Source: Acidobacteriota bacterium (GTDB lineage Bacteria; Acidobacteriota; Terriglobia; Terriglobales; Acidobacteriaceae). Taken from it: a DNA stretch of 39,267 bases. The notes beneath the pieces were generated by a model. It was not told the origin of the DNA and ran no database searches. It was given only the letters and a program-made list of their open reading frames with translations. Position numbers and translations under genes: made by a program. Positions 31,194 to 38,164 of this stretch are shown one piece after another; position 1 is the first letter of the stretch, and each line of letters begins with the position of its first letter. The stretch lies in contig QIAB01000036.1 of the NCBI GenBank assembly GCA_003225455.1, positions 89,263 through 128,529 on the forward strand, written 5' to 3'.

Positions 31194-32366
31194 CTAGGCC
31201 ACAGCGGTTCCGCCACGGCTCTGATCAGTGCGGAAACGCAATAGAGCGGCGATGTTTCCGATGCGGTCGAACTCGGGATCGTCTCTTACGTACAGCAGTT
31301 CGACATCGCGGCGAATGGCCGCGGGAATAATGGCATCGCCAACGTTTTCCAGTTCCCGCGTCCCACGGCCGCAAAGTGGGCAATAACGAACCATGTGGGA
31401 ATCGAGATGGGAACAGCCGCTGCACTCCACGGCGCGTGCAGAATAGTTTTCACCCATCAGTACAGTCTGGGCTTCGCCCACCTCAAGCGAACGCAAGACG
31501 CGCCGTAAACCGGTCACTCCCCGGCCGTTGCTTTTAGCCTGACCAAGCACTTCTTGCACCAATGACTGGCGACGCCGATCGAGCGACTCCTGAAAAATGC
31601 GGTTGGCGTGTGCTCGCACTTCGTCATCCGTGACGCTTCCAACGTCAACCGGAAAGCGTCCTAGCAGCCGCTTTTTCACATACGGATGCAGGTGCGGCTC
31701 AAATTCGTGCCAGTTCGTGTCCTGGCACCCGATAATCAGCTTCTCGTACTGGCCCTGATCGTGAGCCTGCTTCAGACGCTCAGCCACATCTTTGAAGTGG
31801 TGCAGAACTTCGTCATTGATGCTGCGCTCGGAATGCCCGGCATCGTATCCCGCGAAGCCATCGCTGCGTCCGCGACGAGGCAGTGGGCGAAAAATAGCGT
31901 CGTGCTCGTGTAATTCATCGAGGCGAAGATCGAAAAAACGAGCTCGATGGCGATCGACGAGAGCAATCCATAGCTGAGGCTGTGCGCCCAGTAGCATTGC
32001 AAGGGGCTTCAGATGAAATCGCCGGTTCACGAACAACTGCGTTGCAGGTAATTGTGGAGGCAAGTCAAATTCGCGCCAGAAATCACGTTTGCCGCAGGCA
32101 AACACCGCCTTGGCCCGGGCCTGGTTGCCATGGAGGTGGCCGGCGAGTTCGAGGACCCGTTGCAGGTCAGCGCGGGCGCACTTGTTCTTGCCGTTCTTCT
32201 CGGTCCCATGCAGCGCTTCCCGGACCAGATCTTTCGCCAGAATAGCTTCTTCTCGGTGTGATTTGTTCTGCGGCCTGCGCGGTTGAAAATAAAAGCTCAC
32301 AACGCAACGGTCTTCGTCACTGTACGGGAATTGTGCCAGTTCACGGATATCTTCACGTGTGATCAT
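31194..32366 (-). CDS. Bacterial archaeo-eukaryotic release-factor-like protein (baeRF) with zinc ribbon
   Basis: 390 residues from the ATG at 32366, which has AGGAGA 7 nt upstream; the GTG two codons earlier overlaps that spacer. The architecture is that of eRF1/Pelota-like proteins found in bacteria: an N-terminal domain, a middle RNase H-like domain around 128-265 (WIALVDRHRARFFDLRLDEL, then INDEVLHHFKDVAERLKQA and KLIIGCQDTNWHEFEP), and a C-terminal L7Ae/Pelota-like domain 275-385 (VTGLRRVLRSLEVGEAQTVL and FDRIGNIAALLRF) with four zinc-binding cysteines C315, C318, C329 and C332 (CSGC and CPLCG). The loop that holds GGQ in true release factors reads RSDGFAGYDAGHSER, with no GGQ. The family is thought to act in ribosome rescue or quality control; that is inference. 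It is second in an operon with the HPF-sigma fusion. Confidence 0.75.
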   Translation of the reverse strand: MITREDIRELAQFPYSDEDRCVVSFYFQPRRPQNKSHREEAILAKDLVREALHGTEKNGKNKCARADLQRVLELAGHLHGNQARAKAVFACGKRDFWREFDLPPQLPATQLFVNRRFHLKPLAMLLGAQPQLWIALVDRHRARFFDLRLDELHEHDAIFRPLPRRGRSDGFAGYDAGHSERSINDEVLHHFKDVAERLKQAHDQGQYEKLIIGCQDTNWHEFEPHLHPYVKKRLLGRFPVDVGSVTDDEVRAHANRIFQESLDRRRQSLVQEVLGQAKSNGRGVTGLRRVLRSLEVGEAQTVLMGENYSARAVECSGCSHLDSHMVRYCPLCGRGTRELENVGDAIIPAAIRRDVELLYVRDDPEFDRIGNIAALLRFRTDQSRGGTAVA

Positions 32367-32390
32367 CACCACATCTCCTGAGGGTTGTAC

Positions 32391-33434
32391 TCAGTCGGCG
32401 CCGGTGTTCTGAAGCAGTTTGTCTCTAAAACGATTAGCGATAGGCGGGGAGCGGCGCAGATGCACTCGCGCCGCTAAGATTGAGGCGCGAATGTCTTCCG
32501 GCTTGCGATCGGTGATGGCTGCGATTTCATCGATCGAGAATCCTTCGATCGCCTGCAGAATAAAAGCCTCGCGGTCGCGCGGCTTAGCGCCTTCAAGCGC
32601 AAATTGCACCAGCGTAATCATCTCGTCTGAGTAAGCGATCTCTTCCGGGGTTGCCAGGCGCGTGTCCGCGATCACGTTCTCTTCGGTCAAGGCTTCATCC
32701 GGCTGATGATACTGCAGCTCGGGCTCATCGCTGGCACGAACGTTAGGCGTACGTGCAGAATCTTCAAGGCGCACAGAAGAGAAGTTATCCTGCCCACGAG
32801 TGGCAAGATCAGTGATGGAACGGATGGCCAATCGGTACAGCCATGGTTCGAGCGTCAGCCGCTCGGGTTTCTCTGCACCATCACCAAGGGCGCGGGCGAT
32901 GACCTCATCGATTACTTCCTCTTTTGTGACAGAACCCTCAGAAATCTGCTCTGCATTTTGTCGAAACACGAGCTCGCGTTCTACGAATCGGTCGAGCCGG
33001 GATAAATTTGCGTTCACATACGACCGAATGTCGTCCGATGACACCATCTGCGGTTGCACCGCGGCGACGGTTTGCTCAAAGGGGACCCGCGGCTCAGCAC
33101 GCGGCTTTTCCGCGCGGCGGTGCCGCCACTTGTGCGAGCTCCGCAACAAGTCCTTATGCTTTGTGATCTGCTGCAACAGATCATCCAGCGCTGCCTTAAT
33201 TGCCGCTGTGGCCGTGGATGCTGACTCCTGAACTGCCATCTGCCCCGACGGAAGCCGGAGGTTGAAAGAAACTATGATTCCCTCACGCGGTGAATTCTGC
33301 TCGATGTTCCCCTTCAAGTGCACCAGCTCAGGACGAAAGACTTGCAGTCTTTTCTGCAGCTTCTCAATCAGGTGGTTGATTTCTTTTTCAATATCAGGAG
33401 TTCGATGGACCCTATAACTGATGTGGACGTTCAT
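32391..33434 (-). CDS. HPF/RaiA ribosome-hibernation domain fused to sigma-70-like domains
   Basis: 347 residues from the ATG at 33434, behind GAGG; the frame is open further upstream to 33557 but that part has no family character. Residues 1-99 (MNVHISYRVHRTPDIEKEI to ALDDLLQQITKHKDLL) match the S30AE/HPF fold, which binds the small ribosomal subunit and silences ribosomes. A basic linker follows (KWRHRRAEKPRAEPR). Residues 132-210 (VNANLSRLDRFVERELVFRQ, VIDEVIARALG, LTLEPWLYRLAIRSITDLA) resemble sigma region 2. Residues 264-330 (TPEEIAYSDEMITLVQFALE, PRDREAFILQAIEGFSIDEI, RASILAARVHLRRS) resemble region 4 with its helix-turn-helix. HPF and sigma domains are normally separate proteins. The baeRF gene follows 24 nt downstream. 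Confidence 0.75.
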   Translation of the reverse strand: MNVHISYRVHRTPDIEKEINHLIEKLQKRLQVFRPELVHLKGNIEQNSPREGIIVSFNLRLPSGQMAVQESASTATAAIKAALDDLLQQITKHKDLLRSSHKWRHRRAEKPRAEPRVPFEQTVAAVQPQMVSSDDIRSYVNANLSRLDRFVERELVFRQNAEQISEGSVTKEEVIDEVIARALGDGAEKPERLTLEPWLYRLAIRSITDLATRGQDNFSSVRLEDSARTPNVRASDEPELQYHQPDEALTEENVIADTRLATPEEIAYSDEMITLVQFALEGAKPRDREAFILQAIEGFSIDEIAAITDRKPEDIRASILAARVHLRRSPPIANRFRDKLLQNTGAD

Positions 33435-33611
33435 GCAGGCCTCGAATGCGGGAAGGGCTCCCGTGAAGCTTGGTGTCCCTACAAACGCGATTCTACACCC
33501 ACAGGCTACGGGCAGAGCGCAAATCGAGGCCCGGTTTTTCGCATTCGGGAAGTACAACTCCGGGCTGGGGCCCCGAGTCTAAAAATGTTCCGCGGAACTG
33601 GATCCTGGCTT

Positions 33612-34535
33612 ATGCGAACGCGTTTCTGGCGCTTATTGTTGACCGCTGGCATCATTGCTGGGTGCGGGGGTTGCGGAGGTCTGGGAATCGGCAACTCACC
33701 CGGCAGCAAACTGGTTTCCCAACTCGGACACGTCTTCCTGGTCGTCGAAGAAAATCACAGCTACTCCGAGGTGATCGGCAATCCTGCGATGCCATATCTA
33801 AACAGCCTGGTTCCTCAAGGAGGTCTAGCCAAGCAGTATTTCGCGAACGCGCATCCTTCCATTCCGAATTACTTCATGCTGACCACGGGTCAGCCGATCA
33901 CGACCGACGACAACTTCTCCGGGACGGTGAGTGACGATAATGTTGTGCGTGAGCTTGTCGCTGCTGGCAAGACTTGGAAGAGCTATGCGGAAAGCCTACC
34001 GGCGGTGGGATACACTGGCCCGGATTCTCCCCCGTATCTGAAGCACCACAATCCTTTCGCGTATTTTTCCGATGTCTTGAGCAGCCCCGCGCAAGCCAGC
34101 AATCTGGTTCCAATTGGGCAACTCAGTGCTGACCTCACGAATAATCAGGTTCCAAATTATTCGTTCATCGTTCCCAATGCGCGGGACGATGCTCACGATT
34201 GCCCGGATGGCGGATCTGATTGCACCGACTCCCAGAAATTAAACGCCGCCGACCAGTGGCTGAAGACAAACATCGGCGGGGTATTGAACAGCTCGGCGTT
34301 TCAGACCGATGGATTGCTAATCATCGTATTCGACGAATCAGACCTCTCTGACTTCAATCATGGCGGCGGCCATGTCGCTATGGTCCTGCTCAGCCCGAAA
34401 GCTAAAGTGGGATTTCAGTGGACCACCTTTTATCAGCACGAAAGCACGCTTCGAACGACGCTTGAAGCTCTGGGCATCGCCAGTCTGCCGGGAGCCGCGG
34501 CCGGGGCGACGGATATGGGGGAGTTTTTTAAGTAA
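33612..34535 (+). CDS. Phosphoesterase-family (acid phosphatase / phospholipase C-like) lipoprotein
   Basis: 307 residues from the ATG at 33612. A signal peptide with lipobox (LLLTAGIIAGCGG) predicts a lipoprotein. The core is a PF04185-type phosphoesterase: VFLVVEENHSYSEV holds metal-binding and nucleophile positions, then YFANAHPSIPNYFMLTTGQP, SFIVPNARDDAHDC and IIVFDESDLSDFNHGGGHVA complete the metal site. It would cleave phosphomonoesters or phospholipid headgroups outside the cytoplasm. The open frame extends upstream to 33318, opposite the HPF-sigma gene, but lacks signal character; an ATG at 33585 is a possible alternative. Divergent from the HPF-sigma operon. Confidence 0.8.
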   Translation: MRTRFWRLLLTAGIIAGCGGCGGLGIGNSPGSKLVSQLGHVFLVVEENHSYSEVIGNPAMPYLNSLVPQGGLAKQYFANAHPSIPNYFMLTTGQPITTDDNFSGTVSDDNVVRELVAAGKTWKSYAESLPAVGYTGPDSPPYLKHHNPFAYFSDVLSSPAQASNLVPIGQLSADLTNNQVPNYSFIVPNARDDAHDCPDGGSDCTDSQKLNAADQWLKTNIGGVLNSSAFQTDGLLIIVFDESDLSDFNHGGGHVAMVLLSPKAKVGFQWTTFYQHESTLRTTLEALGIASLPGAAAGATDMGEFFK

Positions 34536-35726: not shown

Positions 35727-38164
35727 ATGCCCGGTTCCATGCCTCTCCAGACCAGGGAGCACATAACTCCGCCTGCCTCGCCCGAGGCCAAGTCCCGCAC
35801 TTCACGCTTAAGACCATTACTAGGTCGGATAATTCTGGGAATTTGCTTTCTTGGTGCCTATCTGTTGCTCACACGTTCGGGCGTTATCTTGGAGAGCAGG
35901 ACGGGATTTACCGTGTGGTATCCCGCCAATGGCCTGGCATTTGCCGTGATGCTCGGCGTGAGCCCCTGGTATGCGCCGCTGGTTGTTATTGCGGATTTGC
36001 TGTCTTTGGTGATGTTCTATCATCAGCGGCTGTTTTCCTGGAGCCTCGCACTTGACCCGCTCGGCATTGCCGCCTATGCCGCCGCCGCGCTGATCTTACG
36101 GCGACGATGGCGCATCGATTTTAATCTCACGCATCGCCGCGACGTCGTGCGCTATGCGGTGGGGGCGCTAGCCGCAGCTGCCTTCTCCACTGCGGCTGGT
36201 GTGGGCGGTCTGCTCGCCGATCACTCACTTACCTGGGACCAAAGTTGGCTCTCGGCTTTCAGCTGGTACAGCGGCGACGCAATCGCTCTGCTGAGCATAG
36301 GTCCGACTCTCCTGATCCACGTATTACCTTGGGTCAGAAAGCAGCTCTCGATGTTTGCGCCAAACGCCAGCGGGTCTCAAGAATTGAGAGGGTTTGCTGG
36401 AATGACAGTTGCCGAGGCACTCGAGACCGTAGCCCAGCTTCTCGCTCTCGTTTTGGTGCTCTGGCTCATGTTCGGCCCATCGCTGTCAAGGCTCGGGGTT
36501 TATTACCTGAGTTTTCTTCCGATCATTTGGATCGCCATGCGCCGGGGAATAGCCAGAGTTAGCATTGCGATTCTTCTATTTAACTTTGGTGTCGTACTTG
36601 CATTGCGGATCTTCATCCCCGAGTCGATTCCTACTGTCAGACTGGGTACTCTGATGCTTTCGGTTTCTTTTACCGGATTGATGGTTGGATCGTCCGTCAG
36701 CGAGAGAGATCGCATTGGCGACGAGCTGCACCAACAGACTCTACACTTGCATTCTCTGATCGAAAATAGCCCGTTTGGGATCGTTGTGCTCGATCCTTTG
36801 CGTCGCGTTCAATTATGTAATGCAGTGTTCGAAAGCATTTTTCTATTCAGCGCCCGAGAAATGTCGAGGAAAACTCTGGAGTCGTTACTCTCTGCGAGAC
36901 ACGAACTCGATCAGATGCGGGAGTTATCAGCACAGGTTTTTGCCGGGCAAGCCGTGCATGAGACGATCCGCCACTTCCGCCGCGACGGGAAATTTATCGA
37001 CGTTGAGATCAATGCGGTCCCCTTGCGTCGTGAGGGCCGTGTCGAGGGAGCTTATGCCATCTACAACGACATTTCTGAGCGTGCAAGAGCACAGGAGCAG
37101 GCAGAGAACGATGCTGCCTCACTCAAACGCTGGGTCGAAGAGTTGCAGTTGCGAACCACCCAAATGGCGCTGCTCAACGAAATGGGAGACATGCTGCAAT
37201 GCTGCGCCAATACATTGGAAGCGCGCTCTGTGGTCTCTAGACTCTGCCGGAAGCTTTTTGCCGACGCAGTCTCAGGAATGCTGTTTGAGTTCAACTCAAC
37301 ACCCGATGTGGTTGAGGCAACTGCTTCGTGGGGCAATTCGCACATCTCAGAGTCATCGTTTGCTCCACCAGCCTGCTGGGCGGTCCGTCGCGGACGGGCA
37401 TATTGGAGTGAACCAGCATCAGACGGAATCCTATGCTCTCATTTCATGTCGCAGGATGCTGTGGCTGTGCTTTGCGTGCCTATGATGGCGCAGAGTGAAG
37501 TTGTGGGTCTGCTCCATTTGCAGTACGGGTCGCTGCTTGCCGCGAAAGATGGCGATCAGCAAGTTTCCGAAAAGCACAGGAAATCGCTTTAGCCAGTCTG
37601 CGGCTGCGAGAGACGCTTCGTGAGCAATCGATCCGCGATCCGCTCACCGGCCTTTTCAATCGCCGCATTATGCAGGAGAGCCTCAACCGCGAACTGCATC
37701 GTGCCCGGCGCAAGCAGCATCCGGTCACCGTGGCCTTGATCGACCTCGATCACTTCAAGCGTTTTAACGACACCTGGGGACATGACGCCGGAGATTTGGT
37801 TCTGAAAACCATCGCGCAAGTGTTTCGCAGCCACTTTCGCGCAGAGGATGTAATCTGCCGCTATGGAGGCGAAGAGTTCTCCGTTATCCTTCCCGAGGCA
37901 TCGATTGAAGACGCCGCTAAGCGCGCAGATGCCCTGCGCCACGAGCTCGTGAAGGTCAGGATTCGGCATCTCGAGCACGCCCTTGACCCCGTGACACTGT
38001 CCATTGGTCTCGCGGCCTTCCCCCAGCATGGAACCACTGCGGAACAACTGCTGCGTAAAGCTGATGAATGCCTGTACGAATCGAAGGCTGGAGGACGCGA
38101 CCGTGTAACCGTCCCTCATGTGAATGAGATTGTCACCGAACGCGAAGTTTCAACCACGCGATAG
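35727..38164 (+). pseudogene. MASE1-PAS-GAF-GGDEF diguanylate cyclase, frameshifted before GGDEF
   Basis: It would make cyclic di-GMP from two GTP in response to signals sensed in the membrane and cytoplasm. The first frame (35727-37592) has a MASE1-type membrane sensor at about 30-320 (WYPANGLAFAVMLGVSPWYA and several more helices), a PAS domain at about 345-455 (LIENSPFGIVVLDPLRRVQL) and a GAF domain at about 475-600, and stops right after it. The second frame gives ALASLRLRETLREQSIRDPL, then TGLFNRR, and the complete GGDEF domain: DLDHFKRFNDTWGHDAGD, active site RYGGEEF and an inhibitory I site RAED five residues before it. One missing A in AAAA (37570-37573) explains the break. If real, sensor and cyclase are separated. 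Confidence 0.85.

Follow-up and report, generated by a model that had tools for sequence, protein, structure and literature searches.

A hibernation-promoting factor domain joined to a degenerate ECF sigma-like region in Acidobacteriota, and its association with a Balon-type baeRF gene

INTRODUCTION

Genes for HPF/RaiA proteins lying beside genes for baeRF/Balon proteins have been published already (PMC6514570, PMC10901736). Balon is a hibernation factor, not a rescue factor, and it can occupy one ribosome together with RaiA (PMC10901736). Alternative sigma70 genes, too, are listed for operons of this type in the Balon paper, and some of the genes named there may be HPF-sigma fusions of the kind described below (PMC10901736). 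In dormant Escherichia coli, transcription and translation are silenced together by separate proteins (PMC6904343). PhyR, a sigma mimic, is described as having the right ECF structure but degenerate contacts to promoter and core (PMC8103513).

Here we analyse two adjacent genes in a 39,267 nt stretch of DNA from an Acidobacteriota bacterium (the window), the first of which encodes an HPF domain followed by sigma-like regions and the second a baeRF protein. In the literature searched, in which subscription papers were few, we found no description of an HPF-sigma fusion.

RESULTS

Domain organization of the fusion protein

The fusion gene, P0001, and the parts of its product are as follows.

32391..33434, minus strand: HPF-sigma-like fusion gene P0001, 347 aa (ORF, translation, Pfam, NCBIfam and full-length homologues)
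33129..33434, minus strand: S30AE/HPF domain, residues 1-102 (Pfam PF02482, fold, basic residues)
33042..33128, minus strand: linker, residues 103-131 (pLDDT below 60; lowest conservation outside the tail)
32787..33041, minus strand: sigma2-like region, about residues 132-216 (three model helices; column comparison of 24 ECFs and 57 fusions)
32649..32729, minus strand: sigma2-sigma4 linker motif, residues 236-262, LQYHQPDEALTEENVIAD (kept in the window's own family and in deep members of the phylum, not in ECFs)
32451..32648, minus strand: sigma4-like region, residues 263-328 (Sigma70_r4_2 and PhyR_sigma-like matches; basic charge reduced)

The N-terminal part of P0001 matches Pfam Ribosomal_S30AE at residues 8-95 (38.4 bits against a cut-off of 23.7; 2e-9), and its model superposes closely on RaiA from the Balon-RaiA ribosome structure (8rd8_D; Z 15.3, rmsd 1.4, 98 residues aligned); the basic residues K25, K92 and K94 are common to canonical HPFs. 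Towards the C terminus, residues 284-326 match both Sigma70_r4_2 (29.4 bits, cut-off 25.7) and PhyR_sigma-like (PF22233; 30.7 bits, cut-off 27). Sigma region 2 has no Pfam match in P0001 and is supported by two other lines: the NCBIfam sigma70-ECF model covers residues 159-328 (1e-8), at 35 bits and thus below its cut-off of 42.9, and the predicted fold of residues 132-334 resembles NepR-bound RpoE (5uxx_C; Z 12.5, rmsd 4.4, 152 aligned). The sigma-like part is likewise similar in its model to the sigma-like domain of PhyR (2lfw; Z 10.8, rmsd 4.3, 139 aligned). The preliminary description of this locus, which had placed an S30AE/HPF domain and sigma-like regions 2 and 4 in one chain, is thus borne out by HMM searches and fold comparison.

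In the AlphaFold model the HPF fold is followed by a low-confidence linker, three sigma2-like helices, a second low-confidence linker and a sigma4-like bundle; with a pLDDT of 74 and a pTM of 0.41, the model cannot be relied on for how the domains sit relative to one another. The architecture recurs among homologues, with an S30AE match (E 0.01) in 35 of 36 fusion members and a PhyR_sigma-like Pfam match in 32 of the 36, and conservation at full length across many genera rules out a frame error or chance ORF. By Pfam, NCBIfam and fold, the part of P0001 after the S30AE domain matches sigma models only, and the C-terminal domain of long HPFs is absent. Nor does P0001 contain a match to a receiver domain, an HPF domain being present instead.

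Sequence features of the sigma-like region

Related genomes supplied 24 ECF-type sigma factors, against which we compared the sigma part, in the end over 57 fusions. The core-binding glutamine of region 2.2 is present in all 24 ECFs and has been replaced in every one of the 57 fusions, by Asp (50), Asn (6) or Gly (1); residue 176 of P0001, at this position, is Asp. Also mostly lost in the fusions are the aromatic residue at 183, Asn at 205, the region 2.4 arginines and, in sigma4, R294 and R321, while the fold residues W198, R288, E297, G298 and E303 are retained. The DAED core-binding motif, a contact called essential in a review of ECF sigma factors (PMC8103513), is degenerate. Sigma4 carries a net charge of +1.4 in the ECFs as against -4.7 in fusions of the window's own family (f1) and -4.0 in those of the second family of the order (f2), and the recognition helix +4.2 as against +2.0 and +0.7 respectively. 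Part of the sigma signature (E173, E177, R316 and R323) survives in f1.

The linker between sigma2 and sigma4 is not conserved in ECFs (PMC8103513), whereas that of the fusions carries a motif kept from f1 (LQFHQPDExLxxExxIAD) to deep members of the phylum (LNFYQPDEVLRLEDLLRD). Taken together, the degenerate core and DNA contacts and the conserved linker motif suggest that the sigma-like domain is kept under selection, although probably not for promoter recognition. In a further family (f8) and in some f2 members the motif and parts of the sigma2 signature have been lost, so the role of the sigma part cannot be uniform everywhere. The inhibitory extension of ECF41 sigma factors makes its contact at a conserved linker motif (PMC8999054); by analogy, the acidic QPDE motif of the fusions could dock on the basic HPF domain.

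These comparisons bear directly on the proposal, made in the preliminary description, that P0001 is a working sigma factor sequestered on ribosomes and then released. An alternative sigma that its HPF domain keeps bound to hibernating ribosomes in an inactive state, until it is set free to reprogram transcription, would account for the Sigma70_r4_2 match, for the ECF model over residues 159-328 and for the presence of both the sigma2 and sigma4 folds. The complete replacement of the core-binding glutamine, the degenerate DAED motif and the reduced DNA-contacting charge all speak against it, as does a simple pattern scan in which no conserved ECF-type promoter was found upstream of the fusion. 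With core- and DNA-binding features degraded throughout the phylum, the sigma part is not what one would expect of a functional sigma factor, and we consider such a function decidedly unlikely. The same scan led us to reject an autoregulated promoter of the ECF type. ECF270 was set aside as a known home for the protein, being listed with zinc-dependent anti-sigma proteins.

A sigma-like part that holds core RNA polymerase on idle ribosomes, as a tether or a store and without recognizing promoters, would let both machines hibernate together. The linker segment that enters polymerase in ECFs (PMC8103513) is, unlike ECF linkers, conserved phylum-wide here, and in stationary-phase E. coli, ribosomes (RMF/HPF) and sigma (Rsd) are put into storage in a coordinated way (PMC6904343). 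Against core binding, nevertheless, stand the absence of the region 2.2 glutamine and the lack of a complete DAED motif, which make a tether of this kind very improbable in our judgement.

By predicted fold and pattern of degeneration, the sigma part resembles the PhyR sigma mimic. The PhyR-NepR pathway proper was rejected, as NepR was found in none of 41 genomes searched, with Caulobacter as positive control. Across the loci examined, none of the genes neighbouring the fusion is conserved as a candidate partner.

Distribution of the fusion and census of S30AE proteins

A full-length fusion is present in 23 of 37 f1 genomes, including that of the window, and is nearly always present in f2; class-wide and phylum-wide searches added fusions from f8 and from roughly nine other acidobacterial families. 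The named relatives are metagenome-assembled genomes of this phylum, many from soil, and include Candidatus Sulfotelmatobacter and Candidatus Angelobacter. A single-protein scan matched Acidobacteriota only, with peptide patterns that are specific to close relatives.

In every f2 genome with a match, seven of them at least 95% complete, the S30AE census found the fusion and no other S30AE protein; G049 has two S30AE matches, both of them fusions, and G046 has none. The fusion is also the sole S30AE protein in three f8 genomes (G056, G064 and G092) and in G504, G295, G497 and others from several other families. Those f1 genomes that have the fusion generally encode a canonical HPF as well. The canonical long HPF seems to be missing from f2 (G037-G050, loci L055-L068).

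In a tree of the HPF domain, built on 105 columns only and rooted at its midpoint, the canonical HPFs group together (100/100), apart from a clade that takes in every fusion HPF. Nested inside this fusion clade are standalone HPFs from families f7, f8, f11 and f12, those of f8 being intermixed with f8 fusions. Because of this nesting, and with the canonical clade read as outgroup, the tree suggests that the fusion is old and that the sigma-like part has been lost several times; the nested standalone proteins are moderate evidence against a late joining of a standalone HPF to a sigma factor.

The census and the tree are relevant to a purely structural role, in which the sigma-like part would, for example, replace the C-terminal domain of long HPF in pairing ribosomes into 100S dimers, or steady the factor on the 30S subunit, with no link to transcription. 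Such a role would fit the position of the sigma-like part, which occupies the place of that C-terminal domain, the status of the fusion as the only S30AE protein in f2 and in other genomes lacking long HPF, and the several lineages that have dropped the sigma-like part and retained the HPF domain. However, a canonical HPF is also kept in many f1 genomes, and a linker motif this strong exceeds the needs of a spacer; we regard a purely structural part as unlikely.

Some individual proteins depart from the general pattern. The f8 fusions L069, L124 and L125 have lost the linker motif and Trp198, and other f8 genomes (L126, L166-L168) have HPF alone, the sigma-like part appearing to erode in this family. 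The reverse is seen in L139 (G408), a fusion with a degenerate HPF domain (no PF02482 match, basic KHK motif lost) that keeps the sigma-like part and the QPDE motif.

The adjacent Balon-type baeRF gene

The second gene of the pair follows the fusion on the same strand.

31194..32366, minus strand: Balon-type baeRF family 10 gene P0002, 390 aa from its ATG (a GTG start at 32372 is possible)

The gap between the fusion stop codon and this ATG is 24 nt, the alternative GTG lying six bases before the ATG. P0002 matches Pfam baeRF_family10 (70.8 bits against a cut-off of 27.1; 1.9e-19), and its model aligns with Mycobacterium smegmatis Balon, Msmeg1130 (Z 30.3, rmsd 2.9, 363 aligned), a match that points to the same three-domain aeRF1-like architecture. 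The preliminary description, which placed an eRF1/Pelota-like gene next, 24 nt on, was therefore accurate. CxxC pairs at residues 315 and 329 are invariant in an alignment of 17 relatives (A2). Neither GGQ nor NIKS occurs in P0002 or is conserved among the 17 relatives, the sole GGQ string among them (L034) falling outside the catalytic loop. Sought as a plain sequence string, the HP dipeptide, the motif that binds the decoding centre, does not occur in the N-terminal domain of P0002. P0002 falls short of the cut-offs of the NCBIfam Balon equivalogs (42.3 bits against 330 and 33.9 against 320), and is a member of the wider baeRF family outside those equivalogs.

Fusion and baeRF genes are adjacent in 17 of the 23 fusion-bearing f1 genomes; a class-wide search found the same arrangement in four further f1 members, and it occurs also in f8 genomes G056 and G092. 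For fusion and A2-type baeRF, f1 comprises 17 genomes with both, six with the fusion only, none with the baeRF only and 14 with neither (Fisher p 6e-6). The single operon suggested for this locus is supported, and so is a functional link with ribosome hibernation. The expected adjacency in related genomes thus holds for most fusion-bearing genomes of f1 and for these two of f8, but no baeRF gene lies beside the fusion in f2 or in the deeper members of the phylum examined. An obligatory HPF-sigma/baeRF pair was accordingly rejected, the pairing being restricted in distribution. In G019 there is a weak match, over part of the length, to a baeRF of a different type, and at f11 locus L070 a standalone HPF adjoins a baeRF gene.

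Since Balon and RaiA can share one ribosome (PMC10901736), joint action of the two products of the window is plausible by analogy. The idea that the baeRF protein frees the sigma part by clearing ribosomes is weak: f2 and the deeper lineages of the phylum include fusions that lack a baeRF, and Balon, which can bind together with RaiA, is a factor of hibernation and not of rescue (PMC10901736).

Upstream region and neighbouring genes

Two elements lie upstream of the fusion gene.

33489..33500, minus strand: promoter-like box GGGTGTAGAATC, an RGGTGTANAAT-type box found at 24 of 27 f1 loci
33449..33463, minus strand: leader hairpin, directly upstream of a GAGG ribosome-binding site (33440-33443)

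The hairpin stem varies on both sides among relatives (ACGGG/CCCGT, CACAGGC/GCCTGTG, GCAGGA/TCCTGC), and its mean score of 7.2 compares with 3.9 in shuffles that preserved base composition only, the highest of 200 shuffles reaching 5.8. For the leader in the window, the predicted structure is longer and takes the ribosome-binding site into the pairing. The hairpin and the RGGTGTANAAT box occur together upstream of f1 homologues (L033-L054, L142-L145), where translational control is possible. The pattern RGGTGTANAATC has four matches genome-wide as against none for a reversed-pattern control, too few to define a regulon, and was rejected as a regulon motif.

On the opposite strand lie a gene for a phosphoesterase-family protein (33318-34535, plus strand), homologues of which also adjoin the fusion in L039 and L041, and one for a MASE1-PAS-GAF sensor (35727-37592, plus strand). 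In deep Acidobacteriota families (L128-L138) the fusion has recurrent but different neighbours, named by eye as an aminotransferase, an HD-domain YhaM-type exoribonuclease-like protein and an RNA methyltransferase-like protein.

DISCUSSION

We slightly favour a reading in which the fusion is a hibernation factor that carries a protein-binding sigma mimic. It would then be a second kind of factor for ribosome hibernation, spread across the Acidobacteriota, and its HPF domain would bind idle ribosomes. The C-terminal domain would descend from an ECF sigma factor whose promoter- and core-polymerase-binding features have gone, and would act in a PhyR-like manner, binding a protein instead of starting transcription. 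The partner could be, for instance, an anti-sigma factor, some element of the transcription apparatus or a further hibernation component, and its binding would tie hibernation to transcription. Within Terriglobia, in the window's family and in part of f8, a Balon-type baeRF would be made together with the fusion and would sit in the A site of those idle ribosomes.

The broader proposal, that one protein couples ribosome hibernation to transcription control across the phylum, is put forward tentatively, at rather less than even chances: HPF on idle ribosomes would carry a mimic able to capture or release a regulator of sigma or a component of polymerase, and gene expression would thereby be set by how many ribosomes are idle. 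The conserved joining of a sigma-derived domain to a hibernation factor points to transcription and translation being linked directly in a common soil phylum, and its frequent position beside a Balon-type gene suggests that a link between the shutdown of protein synthesis and the control of transcription may be built in. As a sigma mimic, the fusion would stand apart from the PhyR-NepR system; it offers a concrete protein, a conserved motif and a set of residues to test. The census also shows that genomes with the fusion as their sole S30AE protein can lack a canonical long HPF.

Comparison with known systems

P0001 is like HPF/RaiA and long HPF in its S30AE domain, fold and basic residues, but long HPF has a C-terminal domain of its own where the fusion has a degenerate ECF sigma, and the HPF domains of the fusions form a separate clade. 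HibA, an archaeal HPF-CBS fusion (PMC13324472), offers a parallel in that an HPF is joined to a regulatory-type module and is the main hibernation factor in many genomes, as the fusion described here would be; it differs in that its module is CBS and its hosts are archaeal, the present fusion being bacterial with a sigma-like domain. The sigma-like domain of PhyR (PF22233, 2lfw) shares the ECF fold with degenerate core and promoter contacts, but is attached to a receiver domain where the fusion has HPF, and its partner NepR was not found in the fusion genomes. P0002 is of the same kind as the Balon/baeRF family 10 proteins encoded beside RaiA (PMC10901736, PMC6514570), although the HPF of the window carries a sigma-like domain. 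Finally, ECF sigma factors with an extra domain have sigma2-sigma4 joined to an extension, as in the fusion; the extensions described do not include an N-terminal HPF, and the sigma part of the fusion is, in addition, degenerate.
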